From the NCBI RefSeq assembly GCF_000970045.1, contig NZ_CP009505.1, positions 2,876,808 to 2,940,807 on the forward strand: 64,000 nt of DNA, in the 5' to 3' direction. Numbering within the stretch: position 1 is the stretch's first letter; the number at the start of each line of letters is the position of its first letter. Source of the stretch: Methanosarcina sp. MTP4. GTDB lineage: Archaea; Halobacteriota; Methanosarcinia; Methanosarcinales; Methanosarcinaceae. Position numbers and translations under genes: made by a program. Positions 29,019 to 47,595 of the stretch are shown piece after piece. The notes below the pieces were generated by a model, which worked only from the letters and a program-made list of their open reading frames with translations, was not told the origin of the DNA and searched no databases.

Positions 29019-29093
29019 GCTCCGGTAGTGTAGTCCGGCCAATCATTCCGGCCTTTCGAGCCGAAGACTCGGGTTCGAATCCCGGCCGGAGCA
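29019..29093 (+). tRNA. tRNA-Glu (anticodon TTC), copy 1
   Basis: A 75-base cloverleaf. The acceptor stem is GCTCCGG/CCGGAGC with discriminator A, and CCA is encoded directly after (29094-29096). The anticodon loop CTTTCGA gives TTC. The T arm contains GGTTCGAATCC. T-rich DNA follows. It is identical to the copy at 31369. Confidence 0.95.
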
Positions 29094-31368: not shown

Positions 31369-31443
31369 GCTCCGGTAGTGTAGTCCGGCCAATCATTCCG
31401 GCCTTTCGAGCCGAAGACTCGGGTTCGAATCCCGGCCGGAGCA
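31369..31443 (+). tRNA. tRNA-Glu (anticodon TTC), copy 2
   Basis: Base-for-base identical to the copy at 29019, including encoded CCA (31444-31446) and the preceding GT. The further flanks differ, so this is a gene duplication or conversion limited to the tRNA itself. Confidence 0.95.
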
Positions 31444-42063: not shown

Positions 42064-43845
42064 TTAACTTTGCTTCCTTAAAACCATATATCCTACCAAA
42101 ATCATGACCGAAAACAAGCCAAGAGACAGCAGGACATTTGTTCTGTTACTTGATTTTGATTCTTCTCCAACCCCTTTGGCAGAAGACACTGCCACTGAAG
42201 CATTCCCCTCCGGCACCGTACCCGAAATCGCCGTTACACCTTCGGTTTCTTCCTCTGGAGAAGAGCTTAAGAGCGGTACATCTTTTCCACTGAGCGCACC
42301 TGCCTCCTCAATAGCGCTTATCGCAAATGGCGAAAATCCGGGCGTCTCAGCTTCAAAGTAAACATACCTGTCATCTTCCCCGACCTTCCGGGTGGAAAGC
42401 TCACCCCACTTTTCTTCACTGTTCCTGCAAAGCCTTATTTCGGATTCATCGACATCTTTAGAGTCGATCCATTCCTTTTCCACTCTGAAACTGACAACTG
42501 CGTTTTCAATGTTCTTCGGGTCCGCAATGCCCTGGTTTCCCACCCAGATGTTAACATGCCTGTAAACCGTACCGTAAGGAAGCTTTGGGACAATCTTTGA
42601 CTGCCCTTTCAACATCTCAACAACGGTGGTTACCTTTCCGAAACTCCGCTTAGGTTCGAATTCGACCGAGGCGATACAGGTAACGTTCCGAGGGAACTCG
42701 AATTTAGCCTGGTTGCCATTTGTTATGAATTCCCGGGAGAGTTCCTTTACTTCAACGTTGCTGGCAGGTTCGGGAGAGCCCCCGCCTCCACCGCCTCCGC
42801 TACCACTGCTGGATGAGGAAGAAGAGGAACTGTATGAAGAAGAACTGGAGGAAGAGCTGGAAGAAGAACCGGAAGATGAAGAGGTATTGAGAGCTTTCAC
42901 GGTAAATGGCTCTACTTTTTCATTATTTCCTTCATCAGATTCAGGAACCTGACTATCCGCGTCTGCAACCGCCTTTATATTCAGGTCACCCGAAGATGGT
43001 GGAACCCAGTCAAATGTAAAGGAAGTATTTGAACCTGCTTCGAGTCCGGAAATTGAATCTGAAGACACTTCATCCCCATCAATATAGCATTTTACACCGA
43101 AACTTCCGGAAGGTCCGGAACCCTCATTTAGTAACGTAACCTCAAAAGTCATATTTTCGTTTTCATAAGGATCCGCAGGTTCCCATGAAATATCCTCTAT
43201 GATTAAATCAGGAGCCTGATCATCGGATTCTGGACTATCTGATACGGGAGCATCGGAATCAGGATTTGCTAGAGGGGAAATGGTCCCGTTAACGGCGGCT
43301 TCTGCAAAACCCAAAGTTGCATGCTTGGCCGAAGCCCTGACCGTACAGGGAGTAGCCGTTTCTCCACCATCAATTATTGCCGGAATCCATTCATTTGTGA
43401 ATATCCCGTCATGAGCTGAAGTATCCCCGTTTGTCCCGTCATCGAATAGCTGGAGATTGGAATTACCGTTGCTGAAACTGGCATTAACAAAAATGAGACC
43501 TGAATCAGTGACCGGATTTCCGGAATCGTCCGTAATTTTGACCTCCACGGGCTCAGAAACGTTTTTCGTGGCAGTAAAATTAGCTGCAGGAGATAAGATT
43601 TCCAGATTAAGGGAGCCAGAGAGGGAGCCCGGGTCCACAGCGGTCACGGGAATTGAATGAGTATAAACATACCAGCCCTGCTGGTCAACATTTTCTGAGG
43701 AAACAGGGTCTATTTCATAATCGACAGCAGCGTCATTTTTCAGAGCGGCTCTTGCGAAAAACAGGATTTCATCCGAACCTGCATTCGGTTTCACTTCAAT
43801 CGTCAGGGTTTCTTCCTGGCCTGAGTCCCAGTTAAGTTCCTGGAG
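42064..43845 (-). CDS. Downstream part of TAG-interrupted surface protein: CARDB, PGF-pre-PGF, anchor
   Basis: In-frame continuation of the TolB-like gene after the TAG at 43846-43848; it reads LQELNWDSGQEETLTIEVKP immediately after that codon. The parts are the rest of a beta-sandwich, an Ig-like module, CARDB (PDLIIEDISWEPADPYENEN), a Ser-rich linker, PGF-pre-PGF (ending ETPGFSPFAI), and a terminal helix ending RKQS. As a separate gene it would need the GTG at 43794, which has no ribosome site, no signal peptide and no promoter in between, so independent expression is unlikely. The last 240 residues are closely related to the end of the neighbouring giant protein. Confidence 0.7.
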   Translation of the reverse strand, partial: LQELNWDSGQEETLTIEVKPNAGSDEILFFARAALKNDAAVDYEIDPVSSENVDQQGWYVYTHSIPVTAVDPGSLSGSLNLEILSPAANFTATKNVSEPVEVKITDDSGNPVTDSGLIFVNASFSNGNSNLQLFDDGTNGDTSAHDGIFTNEWIPAIIDGGETATPCTVRASAKHATLGFAEAAVNGTISPLANPDSDAPVSDSPESDDQAPDLIIEDISWEPADPYENENMTFEVTLLNEGSGPSGSFGVKCYIDGDEVSSDSISGLEAGSNTSFTFDWVPPSSGDLNIKAVADADSQVPESDEGNNEKVEPFTVKALNTSSSSGSSSSSSSSSSSYSSSSSSSSSGSGGGGGGGSPEPASNVEVKELSREFITNGNQAKFEFPRNVTCIASVEFEPKRSFGKVTTVVEMLKGQSKIVPKLPYGTVYRHVNIWVGNQGIADPKNIENAVVSFRVEKEWIDSKDVDESEIRLCRNSEEKWGELSTRKVGEDDRYVYFEAETPGFSPFAISAIEEAGALSGKDVPLLSSSPEEETEGVTAISGTVPEGNASVAVSSAKGVGEESKSSNRTNVLLSLGLFSVMILVGYMVLRKQS

Positions 43846-43848
43846 CTA
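43846..43848 (-). other. In-frame TAG codon, candidate pyrrolysine site
   Basis: The only obstacle to one 1048-residue frame from 45210 to 42064. It falls inside a beta-sandwich between EDPMG and LQELNW. Every other stop codon I read in this window is TAA or TGA. Methanosarcina decodes UAG as pyrrolysine. Confidence 0.6.
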
Positions 43849-45210
43849 GCCCATCGGATCTTCTGAAAAAAAGGAAATGCCGTTCTTTCCGTAGATAGAA
43901 CTGCCTTTGGGATAAAATTTATTGTACTCGCCGCCGGTGCCCGTAACACTCAAGATTTCCTCATCGTTCGGGAAAGAAACAGTGATATAGCCCTCGGATG
44001 ACATTCCACCGTCATTTATTAAGGTTACGGAGATGGTGGCGGTCCTGTCTTCGGGAACTTCACCCGAAGGGTCAACCGTAACATCGGTTATGTTTGGCAA
44101 TGGAGCATTCTCGGGAGTGGGAACACCCCCGGGAGTGCTTTCAGAGAGCTCCATTATCCAGATGTCAAAGTTTCCTGGCCTGTCAGAGCAAAAAGCAATC
44201 TTTGTGCCGTCAGGGCTCCATACGGGACAGTCGTCAGATGCCAGACTGACAGTCAACTGAACTTTGTTCTTCCCGTCCGCGTCCATGACCCAGATGTCTT
44301 TGTTTCCGGTCGTATCAGACACGAAGACGATCCTGTCCCCATCCGGCGAAAAACGCGGATTACGGTTATCCGAGTCAGTTGCAGTCAACGAGGTTTTTCC
44401 GGAACCATCGGCGTTTACGGTGAATATGTCCCTGAACAACTTTTCCTCCGGGTCGTTTTCATAAGAGGAATACAAAATTCTTGAACCATCAGGAGACCAC
44501 AGTTCCGACTGCCAGGACTGGATTTGAGGAGTCAGATATCCGTATGCTACGGTTGTCAGGCCGCTTCCATCGGAATTTAGAACTCCGATATATCTTCCGA
44601 ACTCAACCGAATCCGATTCGAACACCAGCTTTGATTCATCAGGAGCCCAGGCAACGGAAGAGAAATAATTGCCGCTGAAACCTGCAAGGCTCTGTTTACC
44701 GGAACCGTCCGGCTCCATTACAATAAGGTTGCTTGAGTGAAGCCCGAGCACGGAAGTATAGGCTATTTTCGAGCCTGAAGGAGACCAGGACCCGAAATCA
44801 TTTTTTGTCGGTTCCACATATTCTTCCGTCGGGACGGTCAGCCTGCTCGCCGAGGACCCGTCTGCATTCATGACCCAGAGATTGGAATTAAACTCCTCTT
44901 CAATTACAAGGGTATACAGGATTTTATTCCCGTCCGGAGACCATGAATAATCCCCGACCTTCCCTCCTGTATCGGTTAGCCGGGCTTCTCTAGAGCCGTC
45001 AGAAAATACCCTGTAGAGCTCCCCACTTCTTCGGAAAAGGATTTCATCCCCATCAGGAGACCAGACAGGCCCTCCGTCGTCCGCAGTATCAGACGTCACA
45101 GCTGTAATCTTATCGACTGCAAAGGCATCAGCTGCCGCTGCATTTGATGCAATGACCGTCATAAGAGCAACGCATATCAACAGAAAAATTAACCTTATAT
45201 TCATTTTCAT
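43846..45210 (-). CDS. TolB/PD40 beta-propeller surface protein, N-terminal part up to TAG
   Basis: A 454-residue section with a signal peptide (LIFLLICVALMTVIASNAAAA) and a TolB-like propeller of about seven PD40 blades, each with a WSPDG-type motif (VWSPDGDEILF, SWSPDGNKILY, RFSPDGDRIVF and so on, about residues 40-350). A CARDB/beta-sandwich module follows, cut at ...FFSEDPMG by TAG. The next codons continue the same frame and finish the domain, the PGF-pre-PGF region and the anchor. Ending here would yield a secreted, unanchored propeller. GGTGG about 13 bases before the ATG supports the start, with a TATA box near 45315-45328. Confidence 0.8.
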   Translation of the reverse strand: MKMNIRLIFLLICVALMTVIASNAAAADAFAVDKITAVTSDTADDGGPVWSPDGDEILFRRSGELYRVFSDGSREARLTDTGGKVGDYSWSPDGNKILYTLVIEEEFNSNLWVMNADGSSASRLTVPTEEYVEPTKNDFGSWSPSGSKIAYTSVLGLHSSNLIVMEPDGSGKQSLAGFSGNYFSSVAWAPDESKLVFESDSVEFGRYIGVLNSDGSGLTTVAYGYLTPQIQSWQSELWSPDGSRILYSSYENDPEEKLFRDIFTVNADGSGKTSLTATDSDNRNPRFSPDGDRIVFVSDTTGNKDIWVMDADGKNKVQLTVSLASDDCPVWSPDGTKIAFCSDRPGNFDIWIMELSESTPGGVPTPENAPLPNITDVTVDPSGEVPEDRTATISVTLINDGGMSSEGYITVSFPNDEEILSVTGTGGEYNKFYPKGSSIYGKNGISFFSEDPMG

Positions 45211-45543: not shown

Positions 45544-46002
45544 TCAAAACTTCGCCCACTTCGAATACTCATCCAGAAAATCTTTGATGATATCATCCAT
45601 GGAAAAAGAATTTATGTCCCCCATATGATGGCTCCCGCTCCTGAGTATCACTTCGGCTTCAAGGGAAGACTCATTTTGGGTCTCGGCATGCTGTGGGAAT
45701 GCGAAATCGCCTTTCTGGTAGGTTCTCCCTCTGACAGCGTAATAAAACTCCTCTGCGTCCTGGAAATAAACCTTCAGGGAAGCTTCGGTTTTTTGTTCAT
45801 CGACATCAATGACAGAGCAGCGCTTATGTTTTTCCAGTTCGGCAGAGAGTTCCCTGAAAGCAGGAAGCACACTGTTTTCGATAAAAGAAGTAACATGGAC
45901 TTCAGCCTTTTCCTCTATCCTTTCCTCCAGGACAGGGGCTTCCGACTCATCTTCGATTTTTCCTTCCAGGATATCTCTAAGGCGGCCCTTCCAGTTATTC
46001 AT
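45544..46002 (-). CDS. Conserved hypothetical protein downstream of the BCCT transporter
   Basis: A 152-residue soluble protein, acidic at the N terminus and predicted alpha/beta. It holds FIENSVLPAFRELSAELEKH, then a beta section, SLKVYFQDAEEFYYAVRGR, and ends MDDIIKDFLDEYSKWAKF. There are no Cys clusters or membrane segments. GAGGG seven bases before the ATG supports the start. It lies 36 bases downstream of the BCCT transporter on the same strand and is probably co-transcribed. Not recognised beyond that. Confidence 0.65.
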   Translation of the reverse strand: MNNWKGRLRDILEGKIEDESEAPVLEERIEEKAEVHVTSFIENSVLPAFRELSAELEKHKRCSVIDVDEQKTEASLKVYFQDAEEFYYAVRGRTYQKGDFAFPQHAETQNESSLEAEVILRSGSHHMGDINSFSMDDIIKDFLDEYSKWAKF

Positions 46003-46038: not shown

Positions 46039-47595
46039 TTAAAAGGCTTCTGATAGCTCAGGATGAGTTTCAGCTGTGATTGTATCCGGAGCTTGCGGGG
46101 GGTTTTCTCCGGGACTGAGGGCATAGCTCTCCGAACGGAGGCCCTGTAAGAGGCTTTTGCACATGAAAAGCATGACCACGCAGAAAGGAAGAGCAGTTGT
46201 AAGGGCAGCTGTCTGCAGGGCAACAAGCCCGCCAGTCAGGAGCAAAACAGCTGCAACAGCCCCCTGAGTAAAAGCCCAGAAAATGCGCTGGGAAATCGGA
46301 GGTGTAGGCTCCCCGTTGGAGGCCAGGATTGCGATTACAAGGGAACCTGAGTCCGAAGAAGTAATGAAGAAGGTTGCTACGACCAGGGTTGCAAGTGCGG
46401 AGCTTAGAAAACCCAGAGGCAGCTGGCTAAGCATGGCGTAGAGGGCTGTTGGCACACTATCCGAAACCGCAGCCACAATCCCGCCGGGGCCGAAGAGTTC
46501 CATGTGGATGGCAGTATTCCCGAAAACGATCACCCAGAGAAAGGTAACAAAAGTTGGAGCAACAAGGACTCCGCGGATAAATTCCCTGATCGTCCTTCCC
46601 CTTGAGACCCTGGCAATAAACATGCCCACGAAGGGAGACCAGGAAATCCACCAGCCCCAGTAGAACATGGTCCAGCTTTTCTGCCACTCGACTCCCTTAA
46701 AGGCGTCCGTTTGAAAACTCAGGGCAGGAAGGGTCTGCAGGTAGTAACCCAGGCTCTCTACGAAGGAACTTAGCAAAAAAACCGTGGGGCCCGTGAGAAG
46801 CACGAATAAAAGGAGCAGAACCCCGAGCCCGATGTTCAACTGGCTCAGGCGACGGATACCCTTATCAAGCCCCGAAACCACGGAAGCCGTGGCTGCCAAG
46901 GTGATCAGGATGATAAGCCAGATCTGGTTTTCGATTGAGCTCTCGGCAAAGCCCAGGTAAGTCAGCCCGGAATTGATCTGCATGACACCGAGCCCCAGAG
47001 AGGTCGCAACCCCGAAAAGGGTTCCGAAAATAGCCATGATTTCCACCAGGTCCCCCAAACTCCCGTATATTTTTTCACCGAGCAGGGGATAGAAGGTAGA
47101 GCGGATTGTAAGAGGAAGATCGTGCCGGTAAGCAAAGTAAGCAAGGGAAAGCCCGACTATGATGTAGATCGCCCAGGCATGCAGTCCCCAGTGGAAGAAG
47201 GTAAGGTTCATGGCTTCCTTTGCGGCTAGGACGGTCCCCCCAGGAGCTTCCGGGGGAGCACTGAAGTGCATGATAGGCTCGGCAACGCTGTAAAAGAGGA
47301 GACCGATCCCCATTCCAGCACTGAAAAGCATCGCAAACCAGGTGGAATTTTTGTATTCCGGCCTGTCCTCATCTTTCCCGAGCCGCACTTCCCCATAAGG
47401 GCTTACGTACAGCCAGAGCACGAAACCCAGGAAAATTGCCACCGAAAGGATGTAAAACCATCCCAGGTAGGAAACGATAAAGTCCTGGACCGTTCCGAAA
47501 AAAAGTCCTGCAGGTTCCGTAAAAACCGCCCCCAGAACCACAAAAAGGACAACAATACTTGCCGAAACGAAAAAAACAACCGGATTGATCCTCAT
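46039..47595 (-). CDS. BCCT-family betaine/choline-type transporter
   Basis: A 518-residue, 12-helix sodium-coupled carrier of quaternary ammonium compounds such as glycine betaine. Diagnostic features are MGIGLLFYSVAEPIMHF, the tryptophan-rich signature WGWWISWSPFVGMFIARVSRG and TSSDSGSLVIAILASNG. Methanosarcina imports betaine as an osmolyte, and some relatives take up betaine or choline as methyl donors, so the precise use is open. The C-terminal tail is short and polar, without a long regulatory domain. The ATG has GAGGATG about eight bases upstream. The 152-residue gene follows 36 bases on. Confidence 0.9.
   Translation of the reverse strand: MRINPVVFFVSASIVVLFVVLGAVFTEPAGLFFGTVQDFIVSYLGWFYILSVAIFLGFVLWLYVSPYGEVRLGKDEDRPEYKNSTWFAMLFSAGMGIGLLFYSVAEPIMHFSAPPEAPGGTVLAAKEAMNLTFFHWGLHAWAIYIIVGLSLAYFAYRHDLPLTIRSTFYPLLGEKIYGSLGDLVEIMAIFGTLFGVATSLGLGVMQINSGLTYLGFAESSIENQIWLIILITLAATASVVSGLDKGIRRLSQLNIGLGVLLLLFVLLTGPTVFLLSSFVESLGYYLQTLPALSFQTDAFKGVEWQKSWTMFYWGWWISWSPFVGMFIARVSRGRTIREFIRGVLVAPTFVTFLWVIVFGNTAIHMELFGPGGIVAAVSDSVPTALYAMLSQLPLGFLSSALATLVVATFFITSSDSGSLVIAILASNGEPTPPISQRIFWAFTQGAVAAVLLLTGGLVALQTAALTTALPFCVVMLFMCKSLLQGLRSESYALSPGENPPQAPDTITAETHPELSEAF

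Follow-up and report, generated by a model that had tools for sequence, protein, structure and literature searches.

A conserved in-frame UAG in a predicted surface protein of Methanosarcina sp. MTP4: a candidate pyrrolysine protein outside the methylamine methyltransferases

A surface-protein gene with a single internal TAG

The window analyzed here, a stretch of 64,000 nucleotides from the 4.21 Mb, single-contig genome of Methanosarcina sp. MTP4, encodes on its minus strand a surface protein (positions 45210-42064) whose frame, when translated, comprises 1048 codons followed by TAA. The sole internal stop in this frame is a TAG at 43846-43848 (codon 455), which we propose to be read as pyrrolysine; translation thus confirmed the description, given in the initial annotation, of one minus-strand frame running from a signal peptide to an anchor and broken only by TAG. 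The predicted product begins with a typical signal peptide of ~26 residues, judged by reading the sequence (MKMNIRLIFLLICVALMTVIASNAAAA, 45133-45210), followed by a TolB/PD40-type beta-propeller (44140-45102; Pfam PF07676, E=2.8e-43, together with NCBIfam TolB-type models) and an Ig-like beta-sandwich (43624-44103, residues ~370-529) that holds the TAG. The latter domain was delineated with AlphaFold2 and Foldseek and has no Pfam match above the cut-off, the top sub-threshold match being BACON. Further downstream, all on the minus strand, are a choice-of-anchor X match (43387-43455; NF041940, E=2.8e-7), a CARDB domain (42916-43215; PF07705, E=2.4e-28), a Ser-rich linker, a PGF-pre-PGF domain (42316-42771; TIGR04213, E=9e-62) and a hydrophobic C-terminal membrane anchor, again judged by reading (VLLSLGLFSVMILVGYMVLRKQS, 42079-42135). 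The read-through protein scores 207.6 bits against TIGR04213, compared with a cut-off of 28, and the anchor follows this domain, as in PGF-pre-PGF surface proteins. Methanosarcina PGF-pre-PGF proteins with TolB-type propellers share its domain order, signal peptide and anchor but have a sense codon at the site of the TAG.

In-frame start codons downstream of the TAG are sparse, with a GTG at codon 473 and the earliest ATG at codon 687, and no GGAGG-like ribosome site precedes these starts, in agreement with the initial annotation. The length of an in-frame extension alone is not rare, since several of 320 TAA- or TGA-ended ORFs have extensions of at least 290 codons past the stop. What is decisive instead is that the homology carries on past the stop and that other species have TAG at the very same codon.

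Elsewhere in the window, a BCCT-family transporter gene (46039-47595, minus strand) precedes a distinct ORF of 152 aa (45544-46002, minus strand) whose product aligns with the C-terminal portion of BetT (NF007399, 538-658), and it seems that the usual C-terminal domain of the transporter has been split off as a gene of its own. Two tRNA genes on the plus strand (29019-29093 and 31369-31443), ~2.3 kb apart, have equal Rfam model scores.

Pyrrolysine machinery of the genome

The methylamine methyltransferases MtmB, MtbB and MttB are the known pyrrolysine proteins. The MTP4 genome contains two mtmB genes with one TAG each, and the full set of genes for tRNA-Pyl(CUA) (pylT), pylS, pylB, pylC and pylD, the lack of which the initial annotation had named as a refutation, was found in one cluster. 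The PylC-like N-terminal domain PF21360 has no match in the genome; pylC was nonetheless placed by its position and by reading of the sequence (L113). The PylS protein (L113:2433-3890, plus strand) is 485 residues long, with a long Ala/Ser/Pro-rich linker joining its two domains. The expectation of a pyrrolysine-decoding genome was supported, with the small correction that the genome belongs to genus bin g1 of the Methanosarcinaceae and not to bin g13 of the same family, the bin of the M. acetivorans-like genomes, among them G074, which is presumably Methanosarcina. Apart from MTP4, pylS was found in the three other genomes of the genus examined (G001, G002 and G003) and in G096 of bin g13. 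Among the 733 MTP4 ORFs of at least 80 aa, 38 end in TAG, a count that includes interrupted and spurious ORFs; TAG still terminates some genes here, so that much of the surface-protein product could terminate at codon 455.

The TAG codon in sister species and relatives

Orthologues of the surface protein in the sister species G002 and G003, which come from separate assemblies, also carry TAG at this codon, flanked as PMG-TAG-L(Q/K)E, with identities upstream of the TAG of 91% and 85% for the two, and a read-through search flagged one TAG in each. The G002 orthologue is divided between contigs, and all comparisons cover its available part. Neither the MTP4 gene nor its G003 orthologue nor the available part of that in G002 contains any further stop or frameshift of the kind expected of a pseudogene. 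The Ig-like domain has no match in G001. A homologue in G096 (L169:7045-9765, plus strand) also has TAG at the aligned codon, at a dS of ~0.8-1.0, but it carries five internal stops (TAA, TAG, TGA, TAA and TAA) over ~900 codons and is clearly a pseudogene, one that decayed recently. Phylogenetic analysis of 26 copies of the domain placed the four with TAG in a single clade (support 94/93) that requires one change, and accordingly a single origin is the simplest account. Relatives that lack the TAG are uninterrupted across the site, where Glu is the commonest residue and Gln, Asp, Gly or Val are found otherwise; the change from GAG or CAG to TAG is one step. Alignment of orthologues at codon 455, another of the proposed checks, thus returned TAG in both sister species, and the sense codons of the relatives, mostly for Glu, do not speak against read-through.

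Conservation of the TAG was considered as proof of function and dropped because ordinary codons show comparable invariance: the three sister species agree at 57% of codons, and all four sequences at 28%. The CTC codon and the residues that follow the TAG are conserved as well.

Selection on both sides of the TAG

Comparison of the MTP4 gene with its G003 orthologue yielded a dN/dS of 0.19 upstream and 0.34 downstream of the TAG (95% range of the latter, 0.27-0.44), and that with the G002 orthologue gave 0.21 and 0.31, respectively, compared with 0.22 for a neighboring uninterrupted surface-protein paralogue. None of 1000 bootstraps reached a dN/dS of 1. Within the downstream part, the lowest value between MTP4 and G003, 0.11 (0.05-0.22), is that of the PGF-pre-PGF domain. 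The dS between these two genes is unequal on the two sides of the TAG (0.22 vs 0.51), perhaps owing to a recombination patch. Judged by these ratios, the codons downstream of the TAG are under purifying selection, which suggests that the downstream half is translated and important, and only read-through would connect this half to a signal peptide.

The fold around codon 455 and RNA signals

In the AlphaFold2 model of residues 370-545 (mean pLDDT 89.7), the TAG residue lies within the strand spanning residues 84-89 of the modeled piece, and more strands come after it, in line with the proposal of the initial annotation that the codons past the TAG complete the beta-sandwich. Foldseek matched the model to integrin leg, cohesin-like and YcnI Ig-like folds, with TM of about 0.4-0.55. 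Because the predicted position is in mid-strand with strands to follow, termination at the TAG would leave a partial Ig-like domain. By comparison, the unanchored relatives from bin g13 that consist of the propeller and the Ig-like domain only (in G074, G080, G094 and G101) end just past the complete domain.

Rfam search for a PYLIS element after the TAG, run on 43600-43950, gave no match up to an E value of 10, and the RNA downstream of the TAG folds no better than shuffled sequences in either MTP4 or G003. PYLIS_1 is present in the mtmB locus examined in the same genome.

Other in-frame TAG codons

A non-exhaustive survey of ~850 kb of the genome as sampled stretches, the window included, identified four further genes with an in-frame TAG and homology on either side of it, three of these TAGs being private and one genus-wide. 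The private cases, all on the minus strand, are a rhodanese (L165:11367-11807; CAG in three sister species), a DUF4139 protein (L189:19167-19997; GAG or GAA in three sisters) and an endonuclease/exonuclease/phosphatase (L162:12286-13053; AAG in G003), the last of which is perhaps frameshifted, with the match ending at residue 236. The genus-wide case is a cation-efflux (CDF) transporter (L150:11567-12556, corresponding to C1:311567-312556, minus strand) with TAG ~56 codons into the gene, in the context LLADAVRSF[TAG]DF. The four species of the genus all have this TAG, whereas G096, other g13 and paralogous copies have Ser; the site presumably adjoins the metal-binding region of the family. The cation-efflux orthologues of two g13 genomes, G084 and G097 (L219 and L221), share a TAG elsewhere in the gene, close to its C-terminal end (YG[TAG]G), which looks like an independent case. 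A PKD-like PGF-pre-PGF protein of G003 (L114:4114-6315, minus strand) carries a GAG-to-TAG change of its own, located after the PGF-pre-PGF domain and just ahead of the anchor. A codon-score screen for interrupted genes was noisy, missing the surface protein and the rhodanese and listing spurious frames. Several long TAG extensions that lack a Pfam match (in L155, in L156 and at L165:14872-15831) were set aside as probably non-coding.

The pattern of in-frame TAGs is consistent with UAG codons arising near-neutrally in a cell that decodes pyrrolysine, as has been proposed for Thg1 and other candidates (PMC3639795). The surface protein and the cation-efflux transporter are, under this pattern, the retained cases; given the other genes with in-frame TAG, the spread and retention of a tolerated UAG would account for the conservation observed.

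Read-through and its alternatives

The pyl set of the genome, the continuity of frame and homology across the UAG, and the UAG of the orthologues with selection downstream of it make this gene a candidate for a new pyrrolysine protein outside the methylamine methyltransferases, a possibility that the initial annotation had raised. We consider it probable (roughly 0.8) that UAG is decoded as pyrrolysine and that the full-length, anchored surface protein is the functional product. One gene would then specify the signal peptide, the propeller, the Ig-like domain, further Ig-like/CARDB domains, the PGF-pre-PGF domain and the anchor. Pyl-tRNA(CUA) would decode the UAG at codon 455 in the usual competition with the release factor, with no dedicated RNA signal; competition of this kind, for which a special signal is not required, has been described (PMC9499178). 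The UAG would have arisen once from a sense codon, probably one for Glu or Gln in an exposed place, before the genus and the G096 homologue split or were exchanged, and would have persisted because the site tolerates pyrrolysine. The case for pyrrolysine insertion is built on the decoding machinery and the conservation of the codon; that pyrrolysine is incorporated, how efficiently, and that retention is near-neutral and not due to a special role of the residue are inferences.

A sequencing error or a lone recent nonsense mutation is excluded by the same-codon TAG in the sister species and by the selection downstream. For the same reasons, the alternative offered in the initial annotation, a nonsense mutation in a decaying gene, fared poorly: although the G096 copy, which shares the TAG, is itself decaying (TAA, TGA, TAA, TAA), the frame is intact in three sister species, with TAG as its only internal stop (in G002 up to the contig end), and the downstream dN/dS of 0.31-0.34 is far below 1, most of all in the PGF-pre-PGF domain, which makes it very improbable that the downstream part is a relic. 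Coding sequence is conserved in both parts, as would also be expected of two separate proteins, an upstream one stopping at the UAG and a downstream one with an internal start. This arrangement is extremely unlikely because the TAG falls within what is modeled as one domain, the downstream part has neither a ribosome-binding site nor an ATG before codon 687, a separately started downstream product would have no signal peptide despite its extracellular-type domains, and the uninterrupted homologues are single chains.

The initial annotation also suggested a regulated switch, in which stopping at the UAG gives a secreted propeller and read-through an anchored protein. In the form considered here, the ratio would follow pyrrolysine supply and hence methylamine use. 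The position of the TAG between propeller and anchor, kept in three species, is the one piece of positive evidence from the gene itself; naturally unanchored relatives made of propeller and Ig-like domain occur in Methanosarcina-type genomes, and amber suppression in Methanosarcina reporters is partial, 20-30% (PMC2933860). However, the terminated product would not be a complete unit, as the stop would remove the remaining strands of the modeled Ig-like domain, whereas the unanchored relatives end only once that domain is complete; neither a PYLIS element nor an unusual RNA fold follows the TAG; the cation-efflux gene retains its TAG equally well, although a stop there leaves just ~50 residues; and other genes of the genome carry TAGs that could play no part in localization. 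Truncated products of UAG termination are, moreover, said to be degraded (PMC9499178). We therefore regard the switch as distinctly unlikely for this gene. The PKD-like protein of G003 would be a better natural test of it, since the stop there leaves complete domains and no anchor. Pyrrolysine itself could have a positive function, for instance in surface chemistry or ligand binding at the Ig-like domain: the TAG has survived the divergence from G096 (dS about 0.8-1.0) despite eight possible one-step sense changes, in company with the conserved CTC codon and the residues that follow. Such retention is nevertheless within the range of ordinary codons (28% invariant in all four sequences), and the presence of Glu, Gln, Gly, Asp or Val in relatives indicates that the position tolerates variety, so that we give this reading very little weight. 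A broader conjecture, to which we assign a low but not negligible likelihood, is that UAG is a minor sense codon spreading in the proteome of the genus, with pyrrolysine in the surface protein and in the cation-efflux transporter kept because it, or a methylamine-dependent dosage, is useful; if this were true, surface display would depend on pyrrolysine supply.

Relation to known systems and implications

As decoded by read-through, the surface protein resembles MtmB, MtbB and MttB in having an in-frame UAG conserved across species, a pyl-bearing genome and a full-length protein under selection. It differs from them in that it is no methyltransferase and shows no obvious catalytic requirement for pyrrolysine; in addition, the MTP4 MtmB has PYLIS_1 and the surface protein has none, and relatives of the latter use ordinary residues at the site. 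Heinemann and co-workers reportedly described in 2009 pyrrolysine in the tRNA-His guanylyltransferase (Thg1) of Methanosarcina acetivorans as a case of 'neutral evolution', a study to which PMC3639795 and PMC2933860 refer. In both proteins the UAG occupies a tolerant position, with a sense codon elsewhere in the family, but the UAG of the surface protein, which is extracellular, is shared by three species within the genus and by a homologue from elsewhere. In-frame stops maintained under purifying selection have been described in bacteria (PMC7918605), similarly with dN/dS values of less than 1 near a conserved internal stop, although the host of the surface protein, unlike those bacteria, has a dedicated suppressor tRNA and amino acid.

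Work on a genome-wide pyrrolysine code exists for some methanogens; in the literature that we searched, no papers on such a code were found. According to a recent review, the use of pyrrolysine is confined to a few methyltransferases (PMC11363022). If peptides confirm the read-through proposed here, these archaea would tolerate pyrrolysine as a residue of proteins in general. Gene finders would then be breaking up or throwing away genuine proteins, and natural genes could serve to measure what ambiguous decoding of UAG costs.
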